Shown here: piece by piece, positions 2,775 through 16,695 of the stretch | How positions within the stretch are numbered: the first letter of the stretch is position 1 | Layout: the number at the start of each line of letters is the position of its first letter | From: Wenyingzhuangia heitensis | GTDB lineage: Bacteria > Bacteroidota > Bacteroidia > Flavobacteriales > Flavobacteriaceae | NCBI RefSeq assembly: GCF_011762155.1 | Contig: NZ_JAASQL010000001.1 | Location: 558,001-622,000 of the forward strand | Length of the DNA: 64,000 bases | Reading direction: 5' to 3' | Translations under genes and position numbers: made by a program | Notes under the pieces: generated by a model | What the model was told of the DNA's origin: nothing | The model's input: the letters and a program-made list of their open reading frames with translations, nothing else | The model's database searches: none

Positions 2775-4913
2775 ATGAAAACATTAAAAAATAAAATGGA
2801 CAGAAAAACCTTTATAAAGGTGTCTTTGCTTTCAGGAACAGGAATTATTTTTGGAGTTAATTATTTACAGGCAAGTGATATAAGTTCTAAAATGCCCAAC
2901 GATCTAGAGTCTTTAAACTACAATAATTTTAATGCTTATATACAAATAGCCAACAATGGAATGGTGACTATTTATGCACCAAATCCAGAAATTGGGCAAG
3001 GTGTAAAAACATCTATGCCTATGATTGTGGCAGAAGAGTTAGATGTTGTTTGGGAAAATGTAAGTGTAAAACAAGCCAATTTGGATACTGCTAATTTTAA
3101 AAGGCAAGTAGCAGGAGGAAGTCAATCTATTCGTTATTCTTGGATGCATTTAAGAGAAGCAGGTGCCACGGCAAGACAAATGTTGATAAACGCTGCTGCT
3201 ATAGAGTGGAATGTGAATGCGAGTGATTGTAAAACAAATAGTGGATTTGTAATTCATCCTAACGGAAAAAAAATAGGATATGGAGATTTGGTTGTAAAAG
3301 CAGCCAAATTAGAAGTGCCAACTAAAGTCACTTTAAAAGAACCAAAATACTTTAAAATTATAGGAAAACAAGCCAGGAATGTTGATAATTTTAAAATAAC
3401 CCAAGGAGATTCTTTGTACGGAATGGATTATTTTGAAGAGGGAATGGTGTATGCTTCTATTATTCATCCGCCAGCATTTGGGCAAAAACTAATCAATATA
3501 GATGATTCGGAAGCTTTAAAAGTAAAAGGAGTTTTAGAGGTAATTCGTATTGGGAACAATATAGCTGTAATTGCAACCGATACTTGGGCTGCGTTTAAAG
3601 GTAAAAAGCAAGTAACCGCAACTTATGACGAGGTAAATAAAAAAGAAGATTCCAATTATTTTGATGCTCAAATGGACAAAGCTTTTGAGTCTGGGGAGTT
3701 TAAAAAAATAAGAGAAGATGGTAATGTCTTAGAGGCTTTTAGCAAAGCAGACAAAGTAGTAGAAAGAGTTTACGAAGCTCCTTTCTTAGCGCACAATACC
3801 ATGGAGCCTATGAACTTTTTTGCTAACGTAACTCCTAGTAAAATTGAATTAAAAGGACCTATACAAACTCCAGAAGGAACAGCTAATCAGGTTGCTAGAA
3901 TTTTAAAAAGAGAGGTGAGTGAGGTAACTTTAGAAATGTGTAGAATTGGTGGTGGTTTTGGTAGAAGATTAAAAGGAGATTATGTGATAGAAGCTGCATT
4001 AATTTCTGATAAAATTAAAAAACCGGTAAAATTAGTTTATACTAGAGAAGATGATATGACAGCAGGTTTGTATAGGCCTAAAGTAAAATATAAAATCAAG
4101 GCAGCTATAAAAAACGGAAAAGTTACAGGGTATCATTTACAAGAGGCTTCTGTAAATGCAACGGTTAATAAAATGCGAGCAGATTTTTTTCCATCAGGTG
4201 CTGTTGATAATTTATTAATAGAAACTCATAGAATAAAAAGTAAGGTAACTTGTTTTGCTTGGCGAGCTCCTATTTGTAATATATTGGCTTTTGCAGAACA
4301 AAGCTTTTTTGATGAATTAGCTATAGAATTAAATACTAGCCCTGTTCAATTACGATTAGATTTGTTGGAAAATGCTAAAAATCACAAGGATAAAAACATG
4401 CAATATTCTCCTGATAGAATGCAAGCGGTGATTAAAAAAGTAGTGGCGGATGCTAATTTTGGAACCTCTAAAAAAGGAGTATACCAAGGATTTAGTGCTT
4501 ACTACAGTCACAATTCTCATGTAGCTCAAATTGCTGAGGTAGAAATTAAAGACCATCAACCTGTGGTAACCAAAGTATATTGTGCAGTAGATTGCGGAAT
4601 TGTAGTGAATCCTTTAGGTGCACAAGCACAAGCAGAAGGTGGAATTATAGACGGAATAGGACATGCTATGTATAGCGAACAAATTGTAGAAAAGGGAGTG
4701 GCACAAAACACCAATTTTCATCAATATAGATTGATTCGTTTAAAAGAAGCTCCAGAAATTCACGTTTCATTTATAAAAAGTGATGAAGCTCCAACAGGTA
4801 TGGGAGAGCCTACTTTACCACCAGCACCCGCTGCATTGGCAAATGCAATTTATGCAGCTACGGGAAATAGATTAAGAAAACATCCATTTGTAACCAATGG
4901 GTTAAATAGTTAG
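2775..4913 (+). CDS. Molybdenum hydroxylase large subunit (IorB-like)
   Basis: Molybdopterin-binding catalytic subunit of a two-component aldehyde/N-heterocycle hydroxylase. The 712-residue protein begins with a hydrophobic stretch (about residues 16-33) after DRKTF. This resembles a degenerate Tat-like leader, as in other IorB proteins, but has no twin arginine. The Mo-cofactor segment RIGGGFGRR starts near residue 390. The catalytic glutamate sits in GMGEPTLPP, with E678 as the likely base. The start at 2775 immediately follows the stop of the Fe-S subunit; an in-frame ATG eight codons in is possible. Downstream XdhC and MobA-like genes support a maturation operon. Substrate unknown; periplasmic location is inferred only from the leader-like N-terminus. 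Confidence 0.88.
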   Translation: MKTLKNKMDRKTFIKVSLLSGTGIIFGVNYLQASDISSKMPNDLESLNYNNFNAYIQIANNGMVTIYAPNPEIGQGVKTSMPMIVAEELDVVWENVSVKQANLDTANFKRQVAGGSQSIRYSWMHLREAGATARQMLINAAAIEWNVNASDCKTNSGFVIHPNGKKIGYGDLVVKAAKLEVPTKVTLKEPKYFKIIGKQARNVDNFKITQGDSLYGMDYFEEGMVYASIIHPPAFGQKLINIDDSEALKVKGVLEVIRIGNNIAVIATDTWAAFKGKKQVTATYDEVNKKEDSNYFDAQMDKAFESGEFKKIREDGNVLEAFSKADKVVERVYEAPFLAHNTMEPMNFFANVTPSKIELKGPIQTPEGTANQVARILKREVSEVTLEMCRIGGGFGRRLKGDYVIEAALISDKIKKPVKLVYTREDDMTAGLYRPKVKYKIKAAIKNGKVTGYHLQEASVNATVNKMRADFFPSGAVDNLLIETHRIKSKVTCFAWRAPICNILAFAEQSFFDELAIELNTSPVQLRLDLLENAKNHKDKNMQYSPDRMQAVIKKVVADANFGTSKKGVYQGFSAYYSHNSHVAQIAEVEIKDHQPVVTKVYCAVDCGIVVNPLGAQAQAEGGIIDGIGHAMYSEQIVEKGVAQNTNFHQYRLIRLKEAPEIHVSFIKSDEAPTGMGEPTLPPAPAALANAIYAATGNRLRKHPFVTNGLNS

Positions 4914-4920
4914 ATATTTC

Positions 4921-5898
4921 ATGACTCATGAATTTAAACAAATAATTACAGCTTATTCACAAGCAAAATCACTTTCTAAAAGTACAGTGTTAGCTACTTT
5001 AGTGTCGGTTAATGGTTCATCTTATAGAAAAGAAGGTGTGCGAATGTTAATTCACCAAAATCAACAAATTGTTGGAGCTGTAAGTGGTGGTTGTGTAGAA
5101 AAAGAAGTGGTTCGTCAATCAGAATCGGTATTTGCAACAGGCCAATCTAAGCTGATGAGTTATGATGGTCGTTACCGTTTAGGTTGTGAAGGAACGTTGT
5201 ATTTGTTGTTAGAGAAATTAGAGATTGAAGATGAGGTGCTTGTTAAAATTCAAGAATCGTTTGTAAATAGAACATCTTTTGAATTGGTTACTTTTTATGG
5301 TGATGAATTTTCTGAAGAAGGAAGAACAATTATTCAGTTTGAAGACGAAGAATATCCAATATCAAACGTTAAAAAAGGAACTGATTTTTTTAATTGTTTT
5401 CGTCAAAAAATGGAACCTATATTTCAATTGTATATCATAGGTATAGAGCACGATGCAAACAGTTTAAGTCAGCAAGCTTCTTTTTTAGGTTGGGAAGTTA
5501 CGGTTGTAAATACGGGTAAAATATTAAAATCTATTGATAAGTTTATTGGAACTAAAAAGATTATCAATTTGGAAGAAGAAAAAGAGATAGACTTGTTGAT
5601 TGATGATGAAACGGCAATTGTATTGATGAATCATAATTATGCAAAAGATTTATTGTTTTTAAAAAGTATAAAAAACAAGAGGCCTGTGTATATAGGTTTG
5701 TTGGGAGCTAAAAAAAGAAAAGAGCAATTGTTAAATGCTTTAATTGAAGAGGATTTAGATGTTTCTGAAGAATTTTTAGCACTTATTCATGGCCCAACAG
5801 GATTGGATATAGGATCTGTAACTCCACAAGAAATTGCGGTTTCTATTGTTTCTGAGATTATTTTAACAATCAAAAAGAAATCAGTAAAATGTTTATAA
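4921..5898 (+). CDS. XdhC/CoxI family molybdenum-enzyme maturation protein
   Basis: Chaperone of the XdhC family, which binds the molybdenum cofactor, protects its sulfurated form and loads it into xanthine-oxidase-family enzymes. The 325-residue protein has the N-terminal XdhC/CoxI motif VSGGCVEKEV near residue 54 and a C-terminal Rossmann-like domain ending in GPTGLDIGSVTPQEIA. It starts seven bases after the stop of the large subunit, so co-transcription and a role in maturing that enzyme are likely. Confidence 0.88.
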   Translation: MTHEFKQIITAYSQAKSLSKSTVLATLVSVNGSSYRKEGVRMLIHQNQQIVGAVSGGCVEKEVVRQSESVFATGQSKLMSYDGRYRLGCEGTLYLLLEKLEIEDEVLVKIQESFVNRTSFELVTFYGDEFSEEGRTIIQFEDEEYPISNVKKGTDFFNCFRQKMEPIFQLYIIGIEHDANSLSQQASFLGWEVTVVNTGKILKSIDKFIGTKKIINLEEEKEIDLLIDDETAIVLMNHNYAKDLLFLKSIKNKRPVYIGLLGAKKRKEQLLNALIEEDLDVSEEFLALIHGPTGLDIGSVTPQEIAVSIVSEIILTIKKKSVKCL

Positions 5899-5929
5899 AA
5901 AAGGAATACTTGTAACGTGTCTGTGTAAA

Positions 5930-6535
5930 ATGATAGAAAATACGGCTTTTTTAATTTTGGCAGCAGGAGCTTCAAAAAGAATGGGAACTCCCAAGCAATT
6001 GTTGTCTTTTAAAACCGATGTTTTGTTAACCCATGCCATTAAGCAGGTGTTGCAAGTTTCTACAGAAAATGTATTTGTTGTGTTGGGAGCAAATTATAAA
6101 TCTATCTTAAAAAAAATAAGAAGCCTTTCTGTTAATGTAATAGAACATAAAGAATGGGAAAAGGGAATTGGGAGTTCTATTGCTTTTGGAGTGTCTCAAA
6201 TTCAACAAACAAATAAATACAAAAGAGTAATGCTCTTGTTGGCAGATCAGCCAAATATTAAAGCCGATGATCTTCAACAAATTTTAAGACATCATTTTAA
6301 TAATAAAAATAAAATTACGGTAACAGCTTGTTATAATTACACGGGAGTTCCTGTTGTTTTTGAGCATTATTTTTTTAAAGAATTAACTTTGTTGTCTAGT
6401 GATAACGGAGCAAAATCAATATTGAAAAAATATGAATCTATTGTTTCTGATTTTTTAATAGAGAAAGAAATTGTGGATATAGATACTCCTGAGGATTATG
6501 ATAAAATGTTAAAAAGTTTAAAACCTTTGTTATAG
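5930..6535 (+). CDS. MobA-like NTP transferase (MocA-type)
   Basis: Nucleotidyltransferase of the MobA-like NTP transferase family. Members attach CMP or GMP to molybdopterin; MocA makes the cytosine dinucleotide form used by xanthine-oxidase-family enzymes. The 201-residue protein opens with LAAGASKRMGTPKQLL (residues 10-25), the nucleotide-binding signature, and has LLADQP near the middle as the metal-binding region. It closes the molybdenum hydroxylase cassette, which makes the MocA role the best guess. CTP versus GTP preference is inferred from context only. Confidence 0.82.
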   Translation: MIENTAFLILAAGASKRMGTPKQLLSFKTDVLLTHAIKQVLQVSTENVFVVLGANYKSILKKIRSLSVNVIEHKEWEKGIGSSIAFGVSQIQQTNKYKRVMLLLADQPNIKADDLQQILRHHFNNKNKITVTACYNYTGVPVVFEHYFFKELTLLSSDNGAKSILKKYESIVSDFLIEKEIVDIDTPEDYDKMLKSLKPLL

Positions 6536-6985: not shown

Positions 6986-7056
6986 GGTGTTGTGGCCGAG
7001 TGGCTAGGCCCTGGTCTGCAAAACCAGTTACAGCGGTTCGAATCCGCTCGACACCT
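6986..7056 (+). tRNA. tRNA-Cys (anticodon GCA)
   Basis: A 71-base cloverleaf. The 7-bp acceptor stem pairs GGTGTTG (6986-6992) with CGACACC (7049-7055), with one G-U pair. The anticodon stem is CTGGT/ACCAG with loop CTGCAAA, placing GCA at 7018-7020. The T arm carries GGTTCGAATCC. The discriminator base at 7056 is U, the identity element expected for tRNA-Cys. CCA is not encoded. Confidence 0.97.
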
Positions 7057-7062
7057 CTAAGT

Positions 7063-7095
7063 AAAACCATCACTTTTTAGTGATGGTTTTTTGTT
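7063..7095 (+). terminator. Terminator after tRNA-Cys
   Basis: Perfect 12-bp stem (7063-7074 with 7079-7090) and a TTTT loop, followed by a T-rich tail. It lies seven bases after the tRNA. Confidence 0.85.
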
Positions 7096-7321: not shown

Positions 7322-8116
7322 ATGAAGACAGTTATATTTACAGATTTAGACGGAACTTTTTTAAACCACGATGATTATTCTTTTGAGGCATCGTCAGAGG
7401 CTTTAGCGTGTATTTTTAAAAAAGAAATTCCGTTAATATTTACCACAAGTAAAACAAAAATAGAAGTTGAATTGTTGCAACAAAAAGTAGCTATTAAAGA
7501 ACCTTTTATTGTAGAAAATGGAGCAGCTTTGTTTATTCCTAAAAACTACAAAGGGTTTGATTTTTCTTTTTTAACTGCCTTTGAAGATTATTATGTTCTA
7601 CAATTAGGAGTTGCATATTCACAAGTTTTAAAATTTTACAATGCTTGTAAAAAGCAGTTTGGAATGTTGGGTTTTAGTGATATGACAGATGATGAGGTTG
7701 TAAAATATACAGGACTACCTCTAGAAAGTGCAAAATTATCTAAGATTAGAGATTTTACAGAACCTTTTGTTTTAAAGGAAGAAGCTGCGCTAGATATTTT
7801 GGAAAAACTAGCTTCAGAAAATGAATTAAAAATTACCAAAGGAGGACGATTTTATCATTTAATAGGAAAAAATCAAGACAAAGGGAAAGCGGTTGAAAAG
7901 TGCGCAGAAATTTTTGAGAAGATATACAAAGAAAAAGTAAAATCTATAGGATTGGGAGATGGACAAAACGATGTGCCCTTGCTAAATAGTGTAGATGTAC
8001 CCATTGCCATTCAAAATCATAAAGGAGAATATATAAGTTTAACAAATTCCGATTTGCAGAAATCTAGTTTTAAAGGAGCTAAGGGTTGGAATGAAATGGT
8101 GCTAAAAAATGTATAA
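7322..8116 (+). CDS. HAD phosphatase of the mannosyl/glucosyl-3-phosphoglycerate phosphatase family
   Basis: Predicted to remove phosphate from a glycosyl-3-phosphoglycerate, giving the free glycosylglycerate. The 264-residue protein has HAD motif I DLDGT at residues 8-12 (D8 as nucleophile, D10 as acid/base). Motif II is the FTTSK stretch, and the motif IV region is GLGDGQNDVPLL. Together with the VENGAALF segment this matches MpgP/YedP-type Cof-like phosphatases. Its stop overlaps the next start by eight bases. The nearby GpgS-like transferase and GH13_18 phosphorylase favour glucosyl-3-phosphoglycerate over the mannosyl form (inference). Confidence 0.85.
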   Translation: MKTVIFTDLDGTFLNHDDYSFEASSEALACIFKKEIPLIFTTSKTKIEVELLQQKVAIKEPFIVENGAALFIPKNYKGFDFSFLTAFEDYYVLQLGVAYSQVLKFYNACKKQFGMLGFSDMTDDEVVKYTGLPLESAKLSKIRDFTEPFVLKEEAALDILEKLASENELKITKGGRFYHLIGKNQDKGKAVEKCAEIFEKIYKEKVKSIGLGDGQNDVPLLNSVDVPIAIQNHKGEYISLTNSDLQKSSFKGAKGWNEMVLKNV

Positions 8117-9260
8117 AAAAGAATTAGAAAAAATATATAACAAAGCTTTGCGAAAAGTAAAAGCAGTTTCTTTAATAAAAGACAACGTATCTGTTCTGGA
8201 AAATGTAATTACTCTTGTAGGGAATGATTATGTGCTTAACAACAATTCTCGTTTTTTTGTTTTTGGAGTAGGAAAAGCTGCTTTTGATATGGCAAAAGAA
8301 TGCGAAGCTATTTTAAAAGATAAAATTGCAGGAGGAGTCGTTATTTCTACTTCTGTAGGAAAATTAAAATACGCAAAACACTTTACGTCTACGCATCCGT
8401 TAGTGTCTGATAAAAGTATAGAAGCAGCAGAAATGTTGATCAATGGAGTGTCGGAATTAACAGAGAATGATGTCTTTGTTTTCCTATTGTCTGGTGGAGC
8501 TTCTGCTATGATAGAAAAACCGATTAACGGATTAACTTTAGATGATTTTACTAAAATATCGGCAGCTCTTTTAACATCGGGAATAGATATAAAAGCTTTA
8601 AATACTGTTCGAAAATCAATTTCTGAAATCAAAGGAGGAAAACTAGCCAATTATATAAAAGCAAAAGGTGAAGTGTTGGTGTTGAGTGATGTAATTGGAG
8701 ACGATTTACATACGATTGGTTCAGCACCAATGAACAATGGAAAGTTTCCACATCATATTATTGGGAATAATGAAATTGCTTTACAAGAAGCAAAAATGTA
8801 TATGAACTCTAAGGTAGAAAAAACAGAAATTATAACAACTACTTTAGAAATGAGTTCAGAAAAAGCAACTGAATTTATATGTGATGAAATTAAAAAATAC
8901 GATGAACAATACAATAGTTTTTGTTTGCTGTTTGGTGGTGAAACCACAACTGTGGTGACAGGAGATGGTTACGGAGGTAGAAATCAGGAATTAGCATTAA
9001 GATTATTGCTTAGTGATTGTATTAACCAAAAAATAACAGTTTTAAGTGCAGGTAGCGATGGTATTGATGGACGATCAAAAGCGACAGGTGCTTTTGTAGA
9101 TTATGATATTTATGAATTGATAAAAAAGAAAAAACTAGATCCACAAGCATCCTTAAAAAATAGTGATAGCAATACTTTTTTTAAAGAATTAGGGTACGAT
9201 TTTGTTACAGGAATATCGGGTACCAATGTGATGGATTTTATAATAATTATAAAAAAATAA
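8109..9260 (+). CDS. Glycerate 2-kinase (GckA, MOFRL family)
   Basis: Type II glycerate kinase phosphorylating D-glycerate with ATP, usually to 2-phosphoglycerate, which enters lower glycolysis. The 383-residue protein has the N-terminal DUF4147 fold (VFGVGKAAFDMA, LLSGGASAM) and the C-terminal MOFRL domain (LFGGETTTVV, GRNQELAL, LSAGSDGIDG). It overlaps the phosphatase gene by eight bases and lies eight bases before the glycosyltransferase. In this operon it would consume the glycerate released when the GH13_18 enzyme phosphorolyses glucosylglycerate. Confidence 0.9.
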   Translation: MYKKELEKIYNKALRKVKAVSLIKDNVSVLENVITLVGNDYVLNNNSRFFVFGVGKAAFDMAKECEAILKDKIAGGVVISTSVGKLKYAKHFTSTHPLVSDKSIEAAEMLINGVSELTENDVFVFLLSGGASAMIEKPINGLTLDDFTKISAALLTSGIDIKALNTVRKSISEIKGGKLANYIKAKGEVLVLSDVIGDDLHTIGSAPMNNGKFPHHIIGNNEIALQEAKMYMNSKVEKTEIITTTLEMSSEKATEFICDEIKKYDEQYNSFCLLFGGETTTVVTGDGYGGRNQELALRLLLSDCINQKITVLSAGSDGIDGRSKATGAFVDYDIYELIKKKKLDPQASLKNSDSNTFFKELGYDFVTGISGTNVMDFIIIIKK

Positions 9261-9268
9261 AGAAAAGT

Positions 9269-10480
9269 ATGGCAGATTTTTTTCAGAATGGAGTGATTAC
9301 AACACTTCAAAACTTAGGAGATAGAACATTAGAAGATTTAGAAAGCGAATTAGAAGGTTTTAGCAAAAGAAGAGGAATGTTGTTAATGTTACCTGCACTG
9401 TATTCTGAGTTTGAAACTCCTGCAATGCACAATATTATAGAGGAGTTAAAAAGTGTAAAATATTTATATAAAATTATTTTAGGGTTAGATCAAGCTACAA
9501 AAGAGCAGTTTGAAGAGGTTAAGGAGCTAATGTCTGTTTTGCCTTGTAAAGTAGATGTTTTGTGGAACGATGGCCCTAAAATTCAAGAACTGTATGCCGA
9601 TTTAACAGCAGAGGGGTTTCCAGGTTTACAAACGCCAGGAAAAGGAAGAAACGTTTGGACAATGATTGGTTATGCTTTGGCAGATAAAGATGCTTATGCC
9701 TTTGCGTTACACGATTGTGATATTGTAAATTACAGTAGAGAAATACCTGCTAGATTGTTTTACCCTATTGTACACCCTGCTTTAGATTTTGAATTTAACA
9801 AAGGATTTTACTCTAGAGTAACTAACAAACTACACGGTAGAGCAACTCGATTGTTGTATACACCTTTGGTGAATTCTTTAGCTAAAGTATACGGAGAAAG
9901 TAAATATTTAGATTATATGGGGAGTTTTAGATACTCATTGTCTGGAGAGTTTTCTTTTATAAGATCTTTAGCTAGAGGTATTGGGATTTCTCCTACTTGG
10001 GGGTTAGAAGTTTCTACGTTAAGTGAAGTGTATAAAAACACCTCTAACAAAAGAATTTGTCAAACGGAGATTATGGAAACCTATGAGCATAAACATCAAG
10101 ATTTGGGAGATCAAGCTTCGGGTTCTGGAATTTATAAAATGTCTAAAGATATTGCCAAAACGTTGTTTAGAGTTTTAGCCCAAGAAGGGATTGTGTTTTC
10201 TGAAGCCTCTTTTAAAACTTTGTTGGCTACTTATTTTCAAGAATCTAGATTTGAGATTTCTAAATACAACGCTTTAAGTAAACTAAATGCATTAGAGTAT
10301 ACCAGAGAAAAAGAAATAAAAGCAGTAGAAGCTTTTCAGAATGCTATAAAAGAAGCTGCTTCTGAATTTTATGAAGATCCTATGGGAACACATTCGTTAT
10401 CCTCATGGATTACCGTAAGATCTGTAATGCCAGACTTTTCTGAAAAATTTGTGAACTACGTTAAAAAAGACAATGAGTAA
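9269..10480 (+). CDS. gpgS: Glycosyltransferase resembling glucosyl-3-phosphoglycerate synthase
   Basis: Predicted to transfer a sugar from an NDP-sugar to 3-phosphoglycerate, the committed step of glycosylglycerate synthesis. The 403-residue protein has a GT-A like fold with LMLPALYSEFETPA near the start and GKGRNVWTMIGYAL around residues 124-137. A DCD metal-binding triad lies at 149-151. No signal peptide or membrane segment, so it is cytoplasmic. The GT81 (GpgS) assignment rests on general similarity and on the operon; the family could instead use GDP-mannose. Its stop overlaps the next ATG by one base, indicating translational coupling. Confidence 0.75.
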   Translation: MADFFQNGVITTLQNLGDRTLEDLESELEGFSKRRGMLLMLPALYSEFETPAMHNIIEELKSVKYLYKIILGLDQATKEQFEEVKELMSVLPCKVDVLWNDGPKIQELYADLTAEGFPGLQTPGKGRNVWTMIGYALADKDAYAFALHDCDIVNYSREIPARLFYPIVHPALDFEFNKGFYSRVTNKLHGRATRLLYTPLVNSLAKVYGESKYLDYMGSFRYSLSGEFSFIRSLARGIGISPTWGLEVSTLSEVYKNTSNKRICQTEIMETYEHKHQDLGDQASGSGIYKMSKDIAKTLFRVLAQEGIVFSEASFKTLLATYFQESRFEISKYNALSKLNALEYTREKEIKAVEAFQNAIKEAASEFYEDPMGTHSLSSWITVRSVMPDFSEKFVNYVKKDNE

Positions 10481-12204
10481 TGAAACATATTTCCGACAAA
10501 GACCACACAATAAATAAGCGATTACATAAATTATATCCGCCAGAAGTAGCAGATAGAGCTGTAGATAGTATTATCGATTTAATTTTTAAATACAAATCTA
10601 GAATACAATCAAAACCGTATCAATTAAGCGAAAAAGATGTGATTTTAATTACCTACGGAGATCAGGTAAACAAAGATTATGAACCCTCTTTACAAACTTT
10701 AAAAGGGTTTATGGACAAGCATTTAAAAGGAATTATAAATTCGGTGCACATTTTGCCTTTTTACCCATACTCTTCTGATGACGGATTTTCTGTAGTGAAT
10801 TACGGGGCGGTAGATCCTAAAATGGGTTCGTGGAGAGAAATTGAACAAATTAGTGGAGATTATAGATTAATGGTTGATGGAGTAATCAATCATATTTCTC
10901 AGTTTTCAGATTGGTTCAAAGCTTTTTTAGCAGATGATCCTTATTTTCAAGATTTTTTTACAGAAGTAGACCCTTCTGTAGATTTAAGCAAAGTGGTAAG
11001 ACCCAGAGCATTGCCTTTGTTAAGCGAGTTTACAGATGCTAACGGAAAAATTAGACACGTTTGGACTACGTTTAGCAAAGATCAGGTTGATTTGAATTAC
11101 AAAAGTCATCGGGTTTTAAGAAACGTATTAGATGCCCTGTTTTATTATGTAGAAAAAGGAGCAACGTTAATAAGATTAGATGCCATTGCTTTTATTTGGA
11201 AAGAAATAGGAACAGAATGTGTGCATTTAGAACAAACGCATGAGCTGATTCAGCTAATGAGAGAAGTGCTACATGAGGTAGCTCCAGAAGTAATTATAAT
11301 TACCGAAACCAACGTACCGCATCACGAAAACGTATCTTATTTTGGTAGTGGATCAGATGAGGCTCAAATGGTGTATAATTTTGCATTGCCACCTTTATTG
11401 GTACATTCCATTTTAAATAAAAATACTGAAACGTTAATGGGCTGGGCAAAAACCTTAACCTTGCCTAGCGATAAAGTTTGCTTTTTTAATTTTACAGCCA
11501 GTCACGATGGAATAGGGTTAAGACCTGTAAAAGGAATTTTAACAGATGCTGAGGTAAATTATGTGGGTGATGTTGTGAAAAGTCACGGAGGATTGGTGTC
11601 TTACAAAACAGATGCTGATGGAAGTCAAAGTCCATATGAGCTAAATTGTAGTTATATGGATGCTTTAACTCACCCTGATGAAGAGGACGAAATTCGTTAC
11701 AAACGTATGTTTTTAGCACAAGTAACGGTGTTAGCTATGCCAGGAGTTCCTGGGGTTTATTTTCATTCTTTGGTAGGTTCTAGAAATTATCATGATGGAG
11801 TAAAACACTCCGGAGTAAACAGAACTATTAATAGAGAAAAATACCATATAGATTGGTTAGAAAAAGAATTAGGAACTCAAGGATCTTTGTCTAAAAAAAT
11901 GTTAGATAGTTATAAGCGTATCATCTCTATTCGTGTAAATGAACCTGCGTTCAATCCTTTTGGGAAATTTGAGTTTTTAGATTTAGGAACCTCACTTTTT
12001 GTGGTAGATCAACATTGTATGCATCAAAAAGAGAGAATTGTAGCCCTACATAACTTTTCGGACACAAATATTACTTGTGAATTGCCAGAAACGATAGCAT
12101 TTCCGTTAACCAATATTTTAATATCTGGTTCAGAATCAAAAATAACAAGTTCTTCTATCACTTTAGAGCCTTTTCAAATACTTTGGTTAAAAGGAGAATT
12201 ATAG
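10480..12204 (+). CDS. GH13_18 sucrose-phosphorylase-like enzyme, probably glucosylglycerate phosphorylase
   Basis: Retaining alpha-glucoside phosphorylase releasing glucose 1-phosphate. In this 574-residue (beta/alpha)8 protein the nucleophile is D234 in IRLDAIAFIWKEIGT, the acid/base E276 in ITETNVPH, and the transition-state stabiliser D343 in TASHDGIGL. The subfamily includes sucrose, sucrose-6-phosphate and glucosylglycerate phosphorylases. Neighbouring genes for glycosyl-phosphoglycerate synthesis and glycerate kinase favour glucosylglycerate plus phosphate giving glucose 1-phosphate plus glycerate. No signal peptide. Specificity is inferred from context; the subfamily is clear. Confidence 0.85.
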   Translation: MKHISDKDHTINKRLHKLYPPEVADRAVDSIIDLIFKYKSRIQSKPYQLSEKDVILITYGDQVNKDYEPSLQTLKGFMDKHLKGIINSVHILPFYPYSSDDGFSVVNYGAVDPKMGSWREIEQISGDYRLMVDGVINHISQFSDWFKAFLADDPYFQDFFTEVDPSVDLSKVVRPRALPLLSEFTDANGKIRHVWTTFSKDQVDLNYKSHRVLRNVLDALFYYVEKGATLIRLDAIAFIWKEIGTECVHLEQTHELIQLMREVLHEVAPEVIIITETNVPHHENVSYFGSGSDEAQMVYNFALPPLLVHSILNKNTETLMGWAKTLTLPSDKVCFFNFTASHDGIGLRPVKGILTDAEVNYVGDVVKSHGGLVSYKTDADGSQSPYELNCSYMDALTHPDEEDEIRYKRMFLAQVTVLAMPGVPGVYFHSLVGSRNYHDGVKHSGVNRTINREKYHIDWLEKELGTQGSLSKKMLDSYKRIISIRVNEPAFNPFGKFEFLDLGTSLFVVDQHCMHQKERIVALHNFSDTNITCELPETIAFPLTNILISGSESKITSSSITLEPFQILWLKGEL

Positions 12205-12288
12205 TTTTTTTCTTTTTCTGTTATATTTTAATAAAATCAAACCTCTTTCTAAAGTCATTTTATATCTTTAATATCAAATTGATTTAAG

Positions 12289-13152
12289 ATGACTTTATAC
12301 CCAATAGAATCGGGAAACTTTAAGTTAGATGGAGGAGCTATGTTTGGTGTAGTACCTAAAGCTATTTGGCAACGAACCAATCCGGCAGATGCTACAAATA
12401 GAATAGATGTTGGAATGCGTTCTTTGTTGATAGAAGATGGAGAACGATTGATTTTAATTGATACCGGTTTAGGGGACAAACAAGATGACAAATTCTTTAG
12501 TCATATTAGCCCTTGGGGAGATTTTACCACAGATATTTCTTTAGCAAAATACGGTTTTCATAGAGATGATATTACCGATGTTTTTTTAACACACCTGCAT
12601 TTTGACCATGTTGGTGGAGCTATTCAATGGAACAAAGACAGAACGTTTTTAGAACCGGCATTTAAAAATGCTACGTTTTGGTCCAATGCCAATCATTGGC
12701 AATGGGCTGTACAACCCAACGCAAGAGAAAAAGCTTCTTTTTTATCAGAAAACATAGTGCCAATAGAAGAAAGTGGGCAGTTAAAATTTGTGGCAATTAA
12801 TGGTGAACAAAAATTACAAACATCAGAATTGGGGTTTGGCATATTTTTAGCAGATGGTCACACAGAAAAACAAATGATTCCGATGATTGATTACAAAGGA
12901 AAAAAAGTTGTTTTTATGGCAGATTTATTGCCAACAATAGGTCATGTTCCTTTGCCTTATGTAATGGGGTATGATACTAGGCCTTTGTTGACATTGTCGG
13001 AAAAAGAATTATTTTTGAAAGAAGCTGCAGATAATGAATACTTGCTGTTTATGCAGCACGATGCACATCATGAAATATGTACAGTCCATCAAACAGAAAA
13101 AGGAATAAGATTAAAAGAAACATATACATTTAAAGAAATATTTAATTCATGA
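12289..13152 (+). CDS. Metallo-beta-lactamase-fold hydrolase (lactonase-like)
   Basis: MBL-fold metallohydrolase of 287 residues with no signal peptide. The dinuclear metal motif HLHFDH is at 102-107 (T before, VGG after), with further ligands in DGHTEKQ and in the C-terminal HDAHHE stretch. The overall form resembles the AttM/quorum-quenching lactonase branch. Substrate is not readable. It overlaps the next gene by four bases (ATGA), so the two are probably translationally coupled. Confidence 0.85.
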   Translation: MTLYPIESGNFKLDGGAMFGVVPKAIWQRTNPADATNRIDVGMRSLLIEDGERLILIDTGLGDKQDDKFFSHISPWGDFTTDISLAKYGFHRDDITDVFLTHLHFDHVGGAIQWNKDRTFLEPAFKNATFWSNANHWQWAVQPNAREKASFLSENIVPIEESGQLKFVAINGEQKLQTSELGFGIFLADGHTEKQMIPMIDYKGKKVVFMADLLPTIGHVPLPYVMGYDTRPLLTLSEKELFLKEAADNEYLLFMQHDAHHEICTVHQTEKGIRLKETYTFKEIFNS

Positions 13153-14807
13153 AATTAACAAGATATACAGCCGTTGTAGCGTTAGGAGTATTTGTAGTAA
13201 GTTGTAGCTCTATTCATAATATTGCGATTCCAGAAGGGAAAAGTGCAGCCATAAACATACCTGCTAAAAAGGTTTTTGCAGAGCAAGAGTTAAACACATG
13301 GTCACATTCAGATTTAGCAACGGATTCTATTCCAGGTATGAGTATAGAAAAAGCCTATGAATTTTTACAAAATAAAAAATCAGTTCCTGTAATTGTAGCG
13401 GTTACAGATTCAGGATCCGATATTACTCATGAAGATTTAAAAAGCAAGGTTTGGGTAAACAAAAAAGAAATAGCTGGCAACGGTAAAGACGATGATAAAA
13501 ATGGATTTATTGATGATGTTCATGGATGGAACTTTTTAGGGTCTACCTATGATGAGACTTTAGAGATTACTAGATTGTACAGATCTTTAAAACCTAAATA
13601 CGAGGGAAAAACATCTGTAGATATTAAGAAAAAAGATACTGAGGCTTATTTGGCTTTTAAAGCCTTGGAAGAAGATTATGAAAATAATTTAGCCGAAGCT
13701 AAAAAAGGACAAGAGCAATATATGCAATATCAAGGTATGCTAAAAGATACGGATGTTGCGATGCAAAATTTAACAGGTAAAAAAGAATATACCTTAGAAG
13801 ACATAAAAGGGGCTACTTCTACATTTGATTTGGTAAATTCTAAAAAAGAAATGGCTATCCGAATTTTAGAAAGCGGAAGTACTATTGAAGAGCAGATAGA
13901 GCAATTAGAACCTGCTGTAGAATATTATACTTCTAAAGTTAATACCTATTACAATTTAGAGTTTGATGGTAGAGCTGCATTAAATGATGATGCTTATTCT
14001 ATGAAAACAAAAGTATACGGGGATAACAATGTAAAAGACCAGGCAGAAGATGAAATTCACGGAACACATGTTTCTGGGATTATTTTAGCTGATAGAAATA
14101 ACAGTTTAGGAGTACAAGGAGTTGCCGAAAATGCTTTGTTAATGGCGGTAAGAGTTGTGCCAAACGGAGATGAATATGACAAAGATGTGGCTTTGGGAAT
14201 TAGATATGCGGTAGACAATGGAGCAAAAGTAATTAATACAAGTTTTGGAAAAGGATATTCTCCAAATGCAGAATGGGTATATGATGCGATTAAATACGCA
14301 GCTAAAAACGATGTGTTGATTGTAAATGCAGCTGGAAATGATGCTCAGAATATTGACGAAAAAGCGAGCTATCCAAAAGATGTAGATGATGCAGAAGAAA
14401 TTTCTGACAATTTTTTAACCATCGGTGCATTGACTCGTTTTTATGACGAAAAATTATTAGCAGATTTTACCAACTATGGTAAAAAGAGTGTAGATGTTTT
14501 TGCACCAGGACACGATATTTACAATACCGTTCCAGGGAATGAATACAAAAAATTAAGCGGAACATCAATGGCATCTCCTGCAACAGCGGGTGTAGCAGCA
14601 TTAATTAGATCTTATTACCCAGAATTATCGGCAAGTCAAGTAAAACATATTATTATGAATTCGGGTACGTTGGTAAATATGGAGGTTTTATTGCCAGGAG
14701 GAGCAGGAAAAAAAGTAAAATTATCAGAGATTTCTAGAAGTGGGAGAATGGTAAATGCATACAATGCTGTAAAAATGGCAGAAGCAATTGTGAATCAAAA
14801 AAAGTAA
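13149..14807 (+). CDS. S8 (subtilisin-like) serine protease lipoprotein
   Basis: Secreted subtilase of 552 residues. The N-terminus is a lipoprotein signal ending in FVVSC with the acylated cysteine at 19. Catalytic Asp87 is in AVTDSGSDI, His304 in EIHGTHVSG and Ser473 in SGTSMASPA. The gap between Asp and His is 217 residues against about 30 in subtilisin. The insertion is charged and Lys/Glu/Gln-rich, probably helical, and looks like a family-specific inserted domain. It overlaps the lactonase-like gene upstream. A terminator follows. Confidence 0.92.
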   Translation: MKLTRYTAVVALGVFVVSCSSIHNIAIPEGKSAAINIPAKKVFAEQELNTWSHSDLATDSIPGMSIEKAYEFLQNKKSVPVIVAVTDSGSDITHEDLKSKVWVNKKEIAGNGKDDDKNGFIDDVHGWNFLGSTYDETLEITRLYRSLKPKYEGKTSVDIKKKDTEAYLAFKALEEDYENNLAEAKKGQEQYMQYQGMLKDTDVAMQNLTGKKEYTLEDIKGATSTFDLVNSKKEMAIRILESGSTIEEQIEQLEPAVEYYTSKVNTYYNLEFDGRAALNDDAYSMKTKVYGDNNVKDQAEDEIHGTHVSGIILADRNNSLGVQGVAENALLMAVRVVPNGDEYDKDVALGIRYAVDNGAKVINTSFGKGYSPNAEWVYDAIKYAAKNDVLIVNAAGNDAQNIDEKASYPKDVDDAEEISDNFLTIGALTRFYDEKLLADFTNYGKKSVDVFAPGHDIYNTVPGNEYKKLSGTSMASPATAGVAALIRSYYPELSASQVKHIIMNSGTLVNMEVLLPGGAGKKVKLSEISRSGRMVNAYNAVKMAEAIVNQKK

Positions 14808-14827
14808 GTAAAAAATTTATAAATTAT

Positions 14828-14860
14828 ATACCAGCCTTTTTTAGGCTGGTATTTTTATTT
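14828..14860 (+). terminator. Terminator after the S8 protease
   Basis: 10-bp stem 14828-14837 with 14843-14852 around a T5 loop (core CCAGCC/GGCTGG), followed by TTTTATTT. Confidence 0.88.
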
Positions 14861-14865
14861 AAAAG

Positions 14866-16695
14866 ATGATGAAAAAAATAATATTCTTTTTGGGAATGTT
14901 GTCAATTACAGTAAATGCACAGTACTGGCAACAAAAAACAGATTATAAAATGGATGTTGATATGGATGTAGAAACCTATCAATACAAAGGAAAACAGGAG
15001 ATTACGTACAGAAATAATTCCCCAGAAACCATCACAAAAGTTTACTATCATTTGTATAACAATGCTTTTCAGCCAGGGAGTGCTATGGATGTAAAAATCC
15101 AAAATATGAAAGATCCAGATCCTAGAGTGATGATAAATATAGGGACTGAAGAGGCTCCAGTAAATAAAAGTAAAATAGCATTGCTAAAGCCAGAAGAGCA
15201 AGGGTTTATAAAAGTCTTAAAACTAACGCAAAAAGGAGAGCTTTTAAAATATTATGTAGAAGGAACGGTTTTAGAAGTAGCGTTGGCAAAACCTATAAAA
15301 GCAGGACGTAAAACCAGCTTAGAAATGGAGTTTGAAGGTCAAATTCCGTTACAAGTAAGAAGGTCTGGTAGAGATAATAAAGAAGGTGTGGCTTTGTCTA
15401 TGACACAATGGTATCCAAAATTAGCTGCTTACGATCAAGAAGGATGGCATGCAAATCCGTACTTGGGAGCGGAGTTTTATGCAGATTGGGGAGATTATGA
15501 AGTAAATATCTCTATAGATAAAGAGTATACCATTGGAGGTTCTGGGTATTTGCAAAATCCGAATGAAGTAGGACATGGGTACGAAACATCTAAAGACAAA
15601 TTAGAACAAAAAATAGAAAACGGAAAAATTACTTGGGAGTTTAAAGCACCAAATGTTCACGATTTTTCTTGGGCTGCAGATGCAGATTACAAACATTTAA
15701 AACATCAAGTAGCAAACGGACCCGAAGTTCATTTTTTATACAAAAACACACTAGATGGAGATAGAAAAGCCTCTTGGGAAAAATTACCTAAAGTTATGGA
15801 TCAGTTGTTTGCTTTTTACAAAGAACAAGTAGGAGCTTATCCTTACAAACAATATACGGTAGTTCAAGGAGGAGACGGAGGTATGGAATATGCAATGTGT
15901 ACTTTAATTACGGGAGATAGAGATTATAGAAGCTTGGTAGGTGTAGTTGCTCACGAATTGGCACATTCTTGGTTTCAGTTTTTATTAGCGAGTAACGAGA
16001 CCAAACATGCTTGGATGGATGAAGGATTCACTACCTACATATCTACATTAATAGAGCATCAATTGTTTAATGATGATAAAGGTGCTTTTGAAAAAATGTA
16101 TGCTAGTTATGTAAAGTTGATAGGATACGGAATAGAAGAACCTTTAACAACTTATGGTGATTCTTTTGATTATAATTATGGATATGGAGTGTCTTCTTAT
16201 AACAAAGGAGCTTTGTTTCTAGATCAATTAGAATATATAATAGGAAAAGATGCATTAAAAAATACGTTAAGAAATTATTTTAAAGCCTATAGTTTTAAAC
16301 ATCCAACACCAGAAAACTTTATGAGAGTAGCAGAAAAAAGCTCAGGATTGGAATTGGATTGGTATTTAAATTATTGGACAGAGACGACGGCTACTATAGA
16401 TTATGAAATTTTCCCTCCTTTAACAGATAAAATTACAATCCATAGAAAAGGAAAAATGCCTATGCCAATAGAAGTAACGGTAACTTATGAAGATGATAGT
16501 ACAGAAGGATTTTACATTCCTTTGGATATTATGAGAGGTGAAAAAAAACAAGAAGTGACTGTTTTGGCAGATTGGTCTTGGATAAAACCTACCTATAGTT
16601 TTTCTGTTGCGAAACCAATAAAAAAAGTGGAGCTTGATCAAGATCATCAAATGGTAGATGTAAACAGAGAAAATAATGTGTGGAATAAAAATTAA
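14866..16695 (+). CDS. M1 family zinc aminopeptidase
   Basis: Gluzincin aminopeptidase of 609 residues, exported by a Sec signal (MMKKIIFFLGMLSITVNA, cleavage near residue 19). The zinc site is H363-E364-x-x-H367 in VVAHELAHSW, and the third ligand E386 follows in WMDEGFTTY, exactly the HEXXH-X18-E spacing of M1 enzymes. The substrate-binding GGMEYAM motif is present about 35 residues earlier. The Bacteroidota short M1 form lacks the long C-terminal ERAP-like domain. Two ATGs in tandem (14866 and 14869) could start it. Periplasmic or outer-membrane peptide trimming is the likely role. Confidence 0.93.
   Translation: MMKKIIFFLGMLSITVNAQYWQQKTDYKMDVDMDVETYQYKGKQEITYRNNSPETITKVYYHLYNNAFQPGSAMDVKIQNMKDPDPRVMINIGTEEAPVNKSKIALLKPEEQGFIKVLKLTQKGELLKYYVEGTVLEVALAKPIKAGRKTSLEMEFEGQIPLQVRRSGRDNKEGVALSMTQWYPKLAAYDQEGWHANPYLGAEFYADWGDYEVNISIDKEYTIGGSGYLQNPNEVGHGYETSKDKLEQKIENGKITWEFKAPNVHDFSWAADADYKHLKHQVANGPEVHFLYKNTLDGDRKASWEKLPKVMDQLFAFYKEQVGAYPYKQYTVVQGGDGGMEYAMCTLITGDRDYRSLVGVVAHELAHSWFQFLLASNETKHAWMDEGFTTYISTLIEHQLFNDDKGAFEKMYASYVKLIGYGIEEPLTTYGDSFDYNYGYGVSSYNKGALFLDQLEYIIGKDALKNTLRNYFKAYSFKHPTPENFMRVAEKSSGLELDWYLNYWTETTATIDYEIFPPLTDKITIHRKGKMPMPIEVTVTYEDDSTEGFYIPLDIMRGEKKQEVTVLADWSWIKPTYSFSVAKPIKKVELDQDHQMVDVNRENNVWNKN

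Follow-up and report, generated by a model that had tools for sequence, protein, structure and literature searches.

The four genes at positions 7322–12204 of the window (the whole 64,000-nucleotide stretch analysed here, taken from contig NZ_JAASQL010000001.1 of the 3.67 Mb genome of Wenyingzhuangia heitensis) are best explained as a unit for glucosylglycerate synthesis and recycling, with predicted enzymes, that was acquired by horizontal transfer. A probability of about 0.85 is given to this reading, which joins a single transcription unit, deduced from the layout, with the transferred origin and the glucosylglycerate cycle. All four genes lie on the + strand with ATG starts, and the open reading frame (ORF) calls agree with the initial annotation of this DNA, which had described four coupled genes with overlaps of 8 and 1 base and a gap of 8; in gene order the spacing is overlap 8, gap 8, overlap 1. 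The four products named there also stand, but they were listed in a different sequence from the actual gene order of HAD phosphatase, MOFRL glycerate kinase, GpgS-like transferase, and GH13_18 phosphorylase. The substrates, the reaction direction, the single transcript, the direction of transfer, and the physiological role are what we infer from these sequences.

The third gene (9269–10480, +) encodes a GpgS-like glucosyl-3-phosphoglycerate synthase (GT81-like, 403 amino acids), to which the GpgS model NF040724 aligns over the full length (400 residues) with 320.4 bits; the equivalog cut-off of 700 is missed and the protein is therefore named GpgS-like, the Persephonella homologue being likewise below this cut-off with 345.6 bits. 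The GpgS/GpgP pathway of glucosylglycerate synthesis is known from Methanococcoides burtonii and Persephonella marina, and the window transferase shares with it the full-length model match and is 62–63% identical to homologues in Persephonella metagenome-assembled genomes (MAGs). A profile of 30 transferase sequences reaches six solved GT81 chains (E 5e-5 to 1.2e-3), four of them named glucosyl-3-phosphoglycerate synthase (7pdo, 7p5l, 4y6n, and 4ddz; E 5e-5 to 6e-4), the other two being uncharacterised depositions (3e25, E 6e-4; 3ckj, E 1.2e-3), and residues K125, D149, D151, R191, E227, E247, and H274 are invariant in these 30 sequences. According to a passage of PMC2581804, Lys114, Asp134, and Glu232 form the donor network of the Mycobacterium tuberculosis enzyme, PLSGE its sugar pocket, and Val186/Thr187 its acceptor site; the window counterparts, read from profile alignments, are K125, D149, E247, SLSGE (223–227), and A192/T193. 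By these alignments the transferase has the predicted motifs of GT81 glucosyl-3-phosphoglycerate synthases: DxD for the metal, the donor-network Lys and Glu, LSGE, and GRxT for the acceptor. A scan of GTDB contigs with the transferase gave at least 352 relatives, and among the best 80 loci, on which all 80-locus counts are based, the patterns GKG and DxD were found in 80 each, GRxTR and WGLE in 79 each, and LSGE in 73.

The fourth gene (10480–12204, +; 574 amino acids) encodes a glucosylglycerate phosphorylase-like GH13_18 enzyme with a PF00128 alpha-amylase domain (79.5 bits, cut-off 22). Glucosylglycerate phosphorylase (GGaP, EC 2.4.1.352) is a GH13_18 activity known from Meiothermus silvanus, Spirochaeta thermophila, and Escherichia coli YcjM, for which Franceus 2017 is reportedly the primary source. 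YcjM, annotated and tabulated as GGaP, is 42% identical to the window protein, and the catalytic triad D234, E276, and D343, called intact in the initial annotation, is indeed invariant in a 10-sequence alignment including YcjM. Within GH13_18, the marks of GGaP given in a section of PMC7178133 are (T/S)ETN and a loop-A Glu, a position occupied by Gln in most other clades. The window enzyme carries TETN at 275–278 and E387 in the loop-A sequence SPYE; glucosylglycerol phosphorylase 7xdq has a Gln, within GAIYQ, at the position aligned to E387. A comparison at the acceptor site had been proposed in the initial annotation, and the residues found there are those published for GGaP and not those of sucrose phosphorylase (the same section of PMC7178133). 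Sucrose or sucrose 6-phosphate phosphorylase was rejected on the loop-A and TETN residues, despite the name of the best NCBIfam model, sucrose phosphorylase TIGR03852, whose cut-off of 334.4 bits is missed by the window protein (225.2 bits) and on which YcjM scores 221 bits. Both marks were present in 49 of 50 complete phosphorylase copies from the 80 loci, the exception (L128; loci are denoted L and genomes G) keeping TETN with a loop that reads AYELN. The assignment of a GH13_18 enzyme with both published marks as a putative GGaP is thus well supported.

The first gene (7322–8116, +) encodes a GpgP-like HAD-IIB phosphatase of the mannosyl/glucosyl-3-phosphoglycerate phosphatase family (264 amino acids), which matches the HAD MPGP subfamily model TIGR01486 (207.7 bits, cut-off 164.75) and the solved mannosyl-3-phosphoglycerate phosphatases 3ztw (E 2.7e-28) and 1wzc (E 6.3e-28), with the HAD motifs TDLDG (7–11) and GDxxND (212–217) kept in 7 sequences. 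It is highly improbable that the product is mannosylglycerate, alone or beside glucosylglycerate, although the name of the phosphatase family refers to the mannosyl compound, the phosphatase finds its best matches in models and structures of mannosyl-3-phosphoglycerate phosphatases, and a solved GT81 relative of the transferase, 3f1y, presumably from Rubrobacter, is named mannosyl-3-phosphoglycerate synthase; the adjoining phosphorylase has the GGaP marks and resembles YcjM, the best transferase model NF040724 is a glucosyl synthase, and the fifth gene of the operon is galU in most relatives. The second gene (8109–9260, +) encodes a MOFRL-type (class II, GckA-like) glycerate kinase in a short form of 383 amino acids, with the domains DUF4147 (PF13660; 188.6 bits, cut-off 23) and MOFRL (PF05161; 112.3 bits, cut-off 28.3) and a match to the solved 2b8n, named "glycerate kinase, putative" (E 1.6e-59). 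The lack of about 45 residues between its two domains is common to L077 and L112 and is not seen in L084, L121, and L132.

Taken as glucosylglycerate enzymes, the products of the four genes very probably make and take apart this compound, and the enzyme identities and the scheme of synthesis, phosphorolysis, and glycerate salvage put forward in the initial annotation are supported at the sequence level. GpgS would take glucose from a nucleotide donor and attach it to D-3-phosphoglycerate, and dephosphorylation by GpgP would then yield 2-O-alpha-glucosylglycerate. The phosphorylase would use phosphate to split this product into glucose 1-phosphate and D-glycerate, and the kinase would return the glycerate to glycolysis as phosphoglycerate, probably 2-phosphoglycerate. 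Phosphorolysis yields glucose 1-phosphate, and thus the glucose would be recovered already phosphorylated. The predicted enzymes are in keeping with a compatible solute whose recycling is built in, and a carbon store may be an alternative role. In PMC11009771 glucosylglycerate is described as accumulating typically under high salinity and nitrogen starvation, and for W. gilva a passage of PMC10971456 gives growth at 0–5% NaCl with an optimum at 2%. OtsA had no match in the genome of the window (the control matched in 6 of 14 genomes), and EctC had none either, in a search that is uninformative since the control genomes likewise gave no match.

That glucosylglycerate is a mere intermediate on the way to a larger glycoside or a polysaccharide primer is highly improbable. 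Mannosylglucosylglycerate is known from other organisms, and in Persephonella L132 an extra transferase stands between the kinase and GpgS, but neither the window nor the 49 loci of full gene order, whose largest gap between neighbours is 109 bases, leave space for a further gene among the four, and the same unit also encodes breakdown. The extra gene of L132 (6729–7991) is a GT2/mannosylglycerate-synthase-like transferase, similar spacing occurs in L133–L137, and, unlike in the window, no phosphorylase was found in the available Persephonella stretches, some of which are short. There is also only a very slim chance that the locus is catabolic for scavenged glucosylglycerate with an incidental synthase. 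Such a locus does exist in the family, in G333 (L219), with regulator, receptor, symporter, phosphorylase, and kinase genes; however, no regulator, receptor, or symporter was found among the scanned genes adjoining the window operon, and the synthase is strongly conserved, with 86–97% identity in seven relatives versus 67–90% for the other three genes (91% for one truncated GGaP copy). The G333 locus (L219, 5453–15001) looks built for glucosylglycerate use, carrying a LacI regulator, a TonB receptor, a glucosylglycerate-hydrolase-like glycoside hydrolase (317 bits on NF047898, below the cut-off of 550), a sodium symporter, a GGaP 54% identical to that of the window, and a GlxK-type glycerate kinase.

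The glucosylglycerate operon is conserved within its genus and is otherwise found chiefly in Campylobacterota. Among 40 relatives searched, the full-length transferase was present in all seven genomes of the genus, including that of the window, and in 1 of 33 others; all eight keep the four-gene order, the last gene of G005 running off its contig. Within 395 genomes of the phylum the full-length type was found in the window's own genome only, and 29 others gave weak partial matches (best 53 bits). The nearest relatives outside Bacteroidota, among the matches listed from the GTDB contigs, are Arcobacter MAGs of Campylobacterota with 85–87% identity, the GpgS being 83–87% identical to the nearest Arcobacteraceae copies among these matches, and 46 of the best 80 loci belong to Campylobacterota. 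Of these 80 loci, 49 show the order GpgP-GckA-GpgS-GGaP, with 39 from Campylobacterota, 7 from Flavobacteriaceae, 1 from a gammaproteobacterial MAG, and 2 unassigned; in the remaining 31 the order is partial, and some of these lie at contig ends. A chance neighbourhood was rejected as an explanation on the conservation of the order in seven other genomes of the genus and family and in 49 of 80 loci. In Psychrobacter L098–L101 GpgP and GpgS occur with no kinase or phosphorylase in the available stretch, perhaps by another transfer.

According to a section of PMC7178133, genes for a glycerate kinase, a synthase, or a phosphatase are often found beside GGaP genes; the window has the same kinds of neighbours. 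In a 16 kb view of the E. coli ycjM locus the neighbours are ABC transporter, dehydrogenase, and kojibiose phosphorylase genes without an annotated synthase, whereas all four functions adjoin in the window. The operon is a new member of an already known kind of cluster and not an invention of Bacteroidota. On the view in the initial annotation that it is undescribed in Bacteroidota, a search of the titles and abstract starts of open-access literature for the operon in Bacteroidetes, flavobacteria, Campylobacter, and Epsilonproteobacteria gave no description; clusters of this kind are nevertheless known in general (PMC7178133), and the operon belongs chiefly to Campylobacterota. As a metabolite, glucosylglycerate is reported from mat consortia with cyanobacteria in PMC3985010 and PMC5507952.

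The initial annotation is further corrected in that a GpgS of another and shorter type occurs with the phosphorylase in other Bacteroidota. In a separate search of the 395 phylum genomes the phosphorylase was found in 23, namely that of the window, G333, and 21 of the 29 with weak transferase matches, and it lies inside 15 of the 24 stretches available around such matches. All eight short transferases scanned match NF010496 (L050 with 395 bits, cut-off 262), and this type of GpgS near GGaP therefore represents a second, differently built arrangement in Bacteroidota. Its predicted product is the same as in the window and both GGaP marks are present in 13 of 14 complete phosphorylase copies, but L050 differs from the window in the GpgS class, in a HAD-IA-like phosphatase, and in a convergent phosphorylase gene. 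In L050 (5656–9300) the phosphatase gene follows the short GpgS that occurs with GGaP, and similar loci occur among L048–L070.

In all four gene trees the Flavobacteriaceae (Wenyingzhuangia, Ochrovirga, and Flavicella; 10 rows, or 9 for GGaP with one copy cut) form one clade among Campylobacterota, with support of 98–100 in the Shimodaira–Hasegawa-like approximate likelihood ratio test (SH-aLRT), proteins shorter than the set lengths (180, 330, 380, and 480 amino acids) being left out and the GckA tree being read from the beginning and end of its listing. Psychrobacter and the gammaproteobacterial MAG, too, branch within Campylobacterota in the tree of GpgS. It seems that a few Flavobacteriaceae received the operon from Arcobacter-like Campylobacterota. 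In the reduced GpgS and GGaP trees the Flavobacteriaceae together with Arcobacteraceae loci L077, L081, and L140 join six loci, mostly Arcobacteraceae (support 87.4 and 88.5, unstarred), and a grouping with the Sulfurovum-rich set was rejected by the approximately unbiased (AU) test (p 0.006 and 3e-5). For GckA and GpgP it is the Sulfurovum-rich set that these sequences join (support 100); it consists of 8-9 rows including L110, a MAG labelled Arcobacteraceae, and the Arcobacteraceae grouping was rejected (AU p 1.6e-5 and 6e-7). The operon thus looks chimeric, with synthase and phosphorylase affiliated to Arcobacteraceae and kinase and phosphatase to the Sulfurovum-rich set, and we read this as a replacement of the kinase–phosphatase pair inside the operon before its move to Flavobacteriaceae. 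A single clade of Flavobacteriaceae with their three nearest Arcobacteraceae (L077, L081, and L140) is neither supported nor rejected by the trees. In a misbinning check of these three loci, 20 of 21 flanking ORFs were matched with a top hit in Campylobacterota, a weak check since the comparison covered only the ORFs of the 80 loci, which are mostly Campylobacterota.

In the window and six other genomes (L041, L042, L043, L046, L047, and L076) the operon stands between folB–tRNA-Cys and ytnP, and an empty site was found in the same genus, where G004 and G005 (L183 and L184) have folB–tRNA-Cys directly followed by ytnP. In G004, G005, and Ochrovirga the operon occupies a second site with neighbours shared on one side (L074, L075, and L079), among which a LysR-type gene, named by sight, occurs in L075 and L044. 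The two chromosomal sites reflect either one arrival with a later move or two arrivals. The G+C content of 1-kb windows across the operon is 0.31–0.36, like that of the flanks, and base composition is therefore no marker of transfer. A tRNA-mediated island was considered and rejected, as the last 16–25 bases of the tRNA occur only once in the window with no attachment repeat; no integrase search was made.

The Campylobacterota operon is gpgP-gckA-gpgS-GGaP-galU, the first four genes being in the same order as in the window, and the ancestor of the small flavobacterial group would have received, or kept, only these four. Outside Flavobacteriaceae, 41 loci contain GGaP with 1.5 kb or more of sequence behind it; in 37 of them a nucleotidyltransferase gene begins at most 93 bases after GGaP, and all four such proteins scanned pass the GalU cut-off (385.5–391.6 versus 326.8 bits). 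Six Flavobacteriaceae loci extend far enough downstream, and none has galU after GGaP. In the window the next gene, 84 bases on, encodes a metallo-hydrolase; galU of the relatives is missing and therefore "self-contained", as the unit had been called in the initial annotation, is overstated. Searches of the genome with the GalU family and the L081 GalU gave weak matches only, the best being RmlA, and a UDPGP search gave no match, in the control genomes likewise, and is hence uninformative. GlgC is present (428.5 bits, just above the cut-off of 424.9), and an unclassified NTP transferase (L218) is a possible source of UDP-glucose. As GlgC is present and no GalU was found, ADP-glucose may be the donor; a passage of PMC2581804 states that the M. 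tuberculosis enzyme favours UDP-glucose, yet uses ADP-glucose efficiently as well. It is tentatively proposed, as a possibility still on the unlikely side, that flavobacteria run the galU-less cycle on ADP-glucose, which would tie the solute to the glycogen branch and not to UDP-glucose metabolism, the donor change being forced by partial transfer. Near some Campylobacterota copies a zwf-pgl-edd-eda Entner–Doudoroff set is seen, with zwf in 11 of 47 loci with room for it; galU with this set lies in L081 at 10979–16410, and downstream also in L080, L083, L085, L092, and L140, while in L093, L094, L096, L103, and L112 the Entner–Doudoroff set is upstream of the operon.

Several observations weigh against the proposed transferred glucosylglycerate unit. 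No curated model certifies the transferase (320 versus 700 bits), phmmer with the single transferase sequence matched no solved relative and only the profile search did so, LSGE is absent from 7 of 80 relatives, and the solved GpgS-named 7p5l has PLGGE, so that the Ser of LSGE is no strict mark of glucose; the related solved GT81 enzyme 3f1y bears a mannosyl name. The phosphatase misses the equivalog TIGR02461 (200.9 versus 244.35 bits) and the kinase misses NF040791 (191.9 versus 670) and NF041176 (173.1 versus 550). Four of the 41 loci (L090, L104, L105, and L113) are without galU. Synthesis and breakdown on one transcript would be a futile cycle unless further controlled, and a BCCT transporter in the genome makes betaine import possible. 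Finally, tree building relied on quick searches and midpoint rooting, and the groups compared in the AU tests were defined once the trees were in view.

The flanks of the insertion site lie outside the pathway. Upstream are molybdoenzyme-type genes, folB, and a tRNA-Cys gene (6986–7056, +; Rfam tRNA, 61.3 bits), and between tRNA and operon a terminator-like hairpin (7063–7090, +) is predicted by consensus pattern only, in a scan that found 5 such sites in the whole stretch against 2.6 expected; the promoter scan, with 29 found against 23.8 expected, is uninformative. Downstream are the YtnP-like metallo-hydrolase gene (12289–13152, +; 173 bits on NF047919, below the cut-off of 425) and a subtilase gene. 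Directly 5' of folB, at 2775–6535, genes for a molybdenum hydroxylase subunit, an XdhC-like, and a MocA-like protein had no match in the available L041 and L042 stretches.

In 2020 the metabolic function of GGaP lacked experimental confirmation, as stated in a section of PMC7178133. Cultured marine Wenyingzhuangia hold the whole predicted cycle in one stretch, and the making and breaking of the solute would be testable there by single-gene deletions. The chimeric history, like the lack of galU, allows concrete predictions on the donor sugar, and glucosylglycerate production might also draw on the phosphorylase of this clade. If the ADP-glucose proposal is true, then, together with the apparent kinase–phosphatase swap before transfer, the operon would represent a modular, stepwise re-assembly of a solute pathway.

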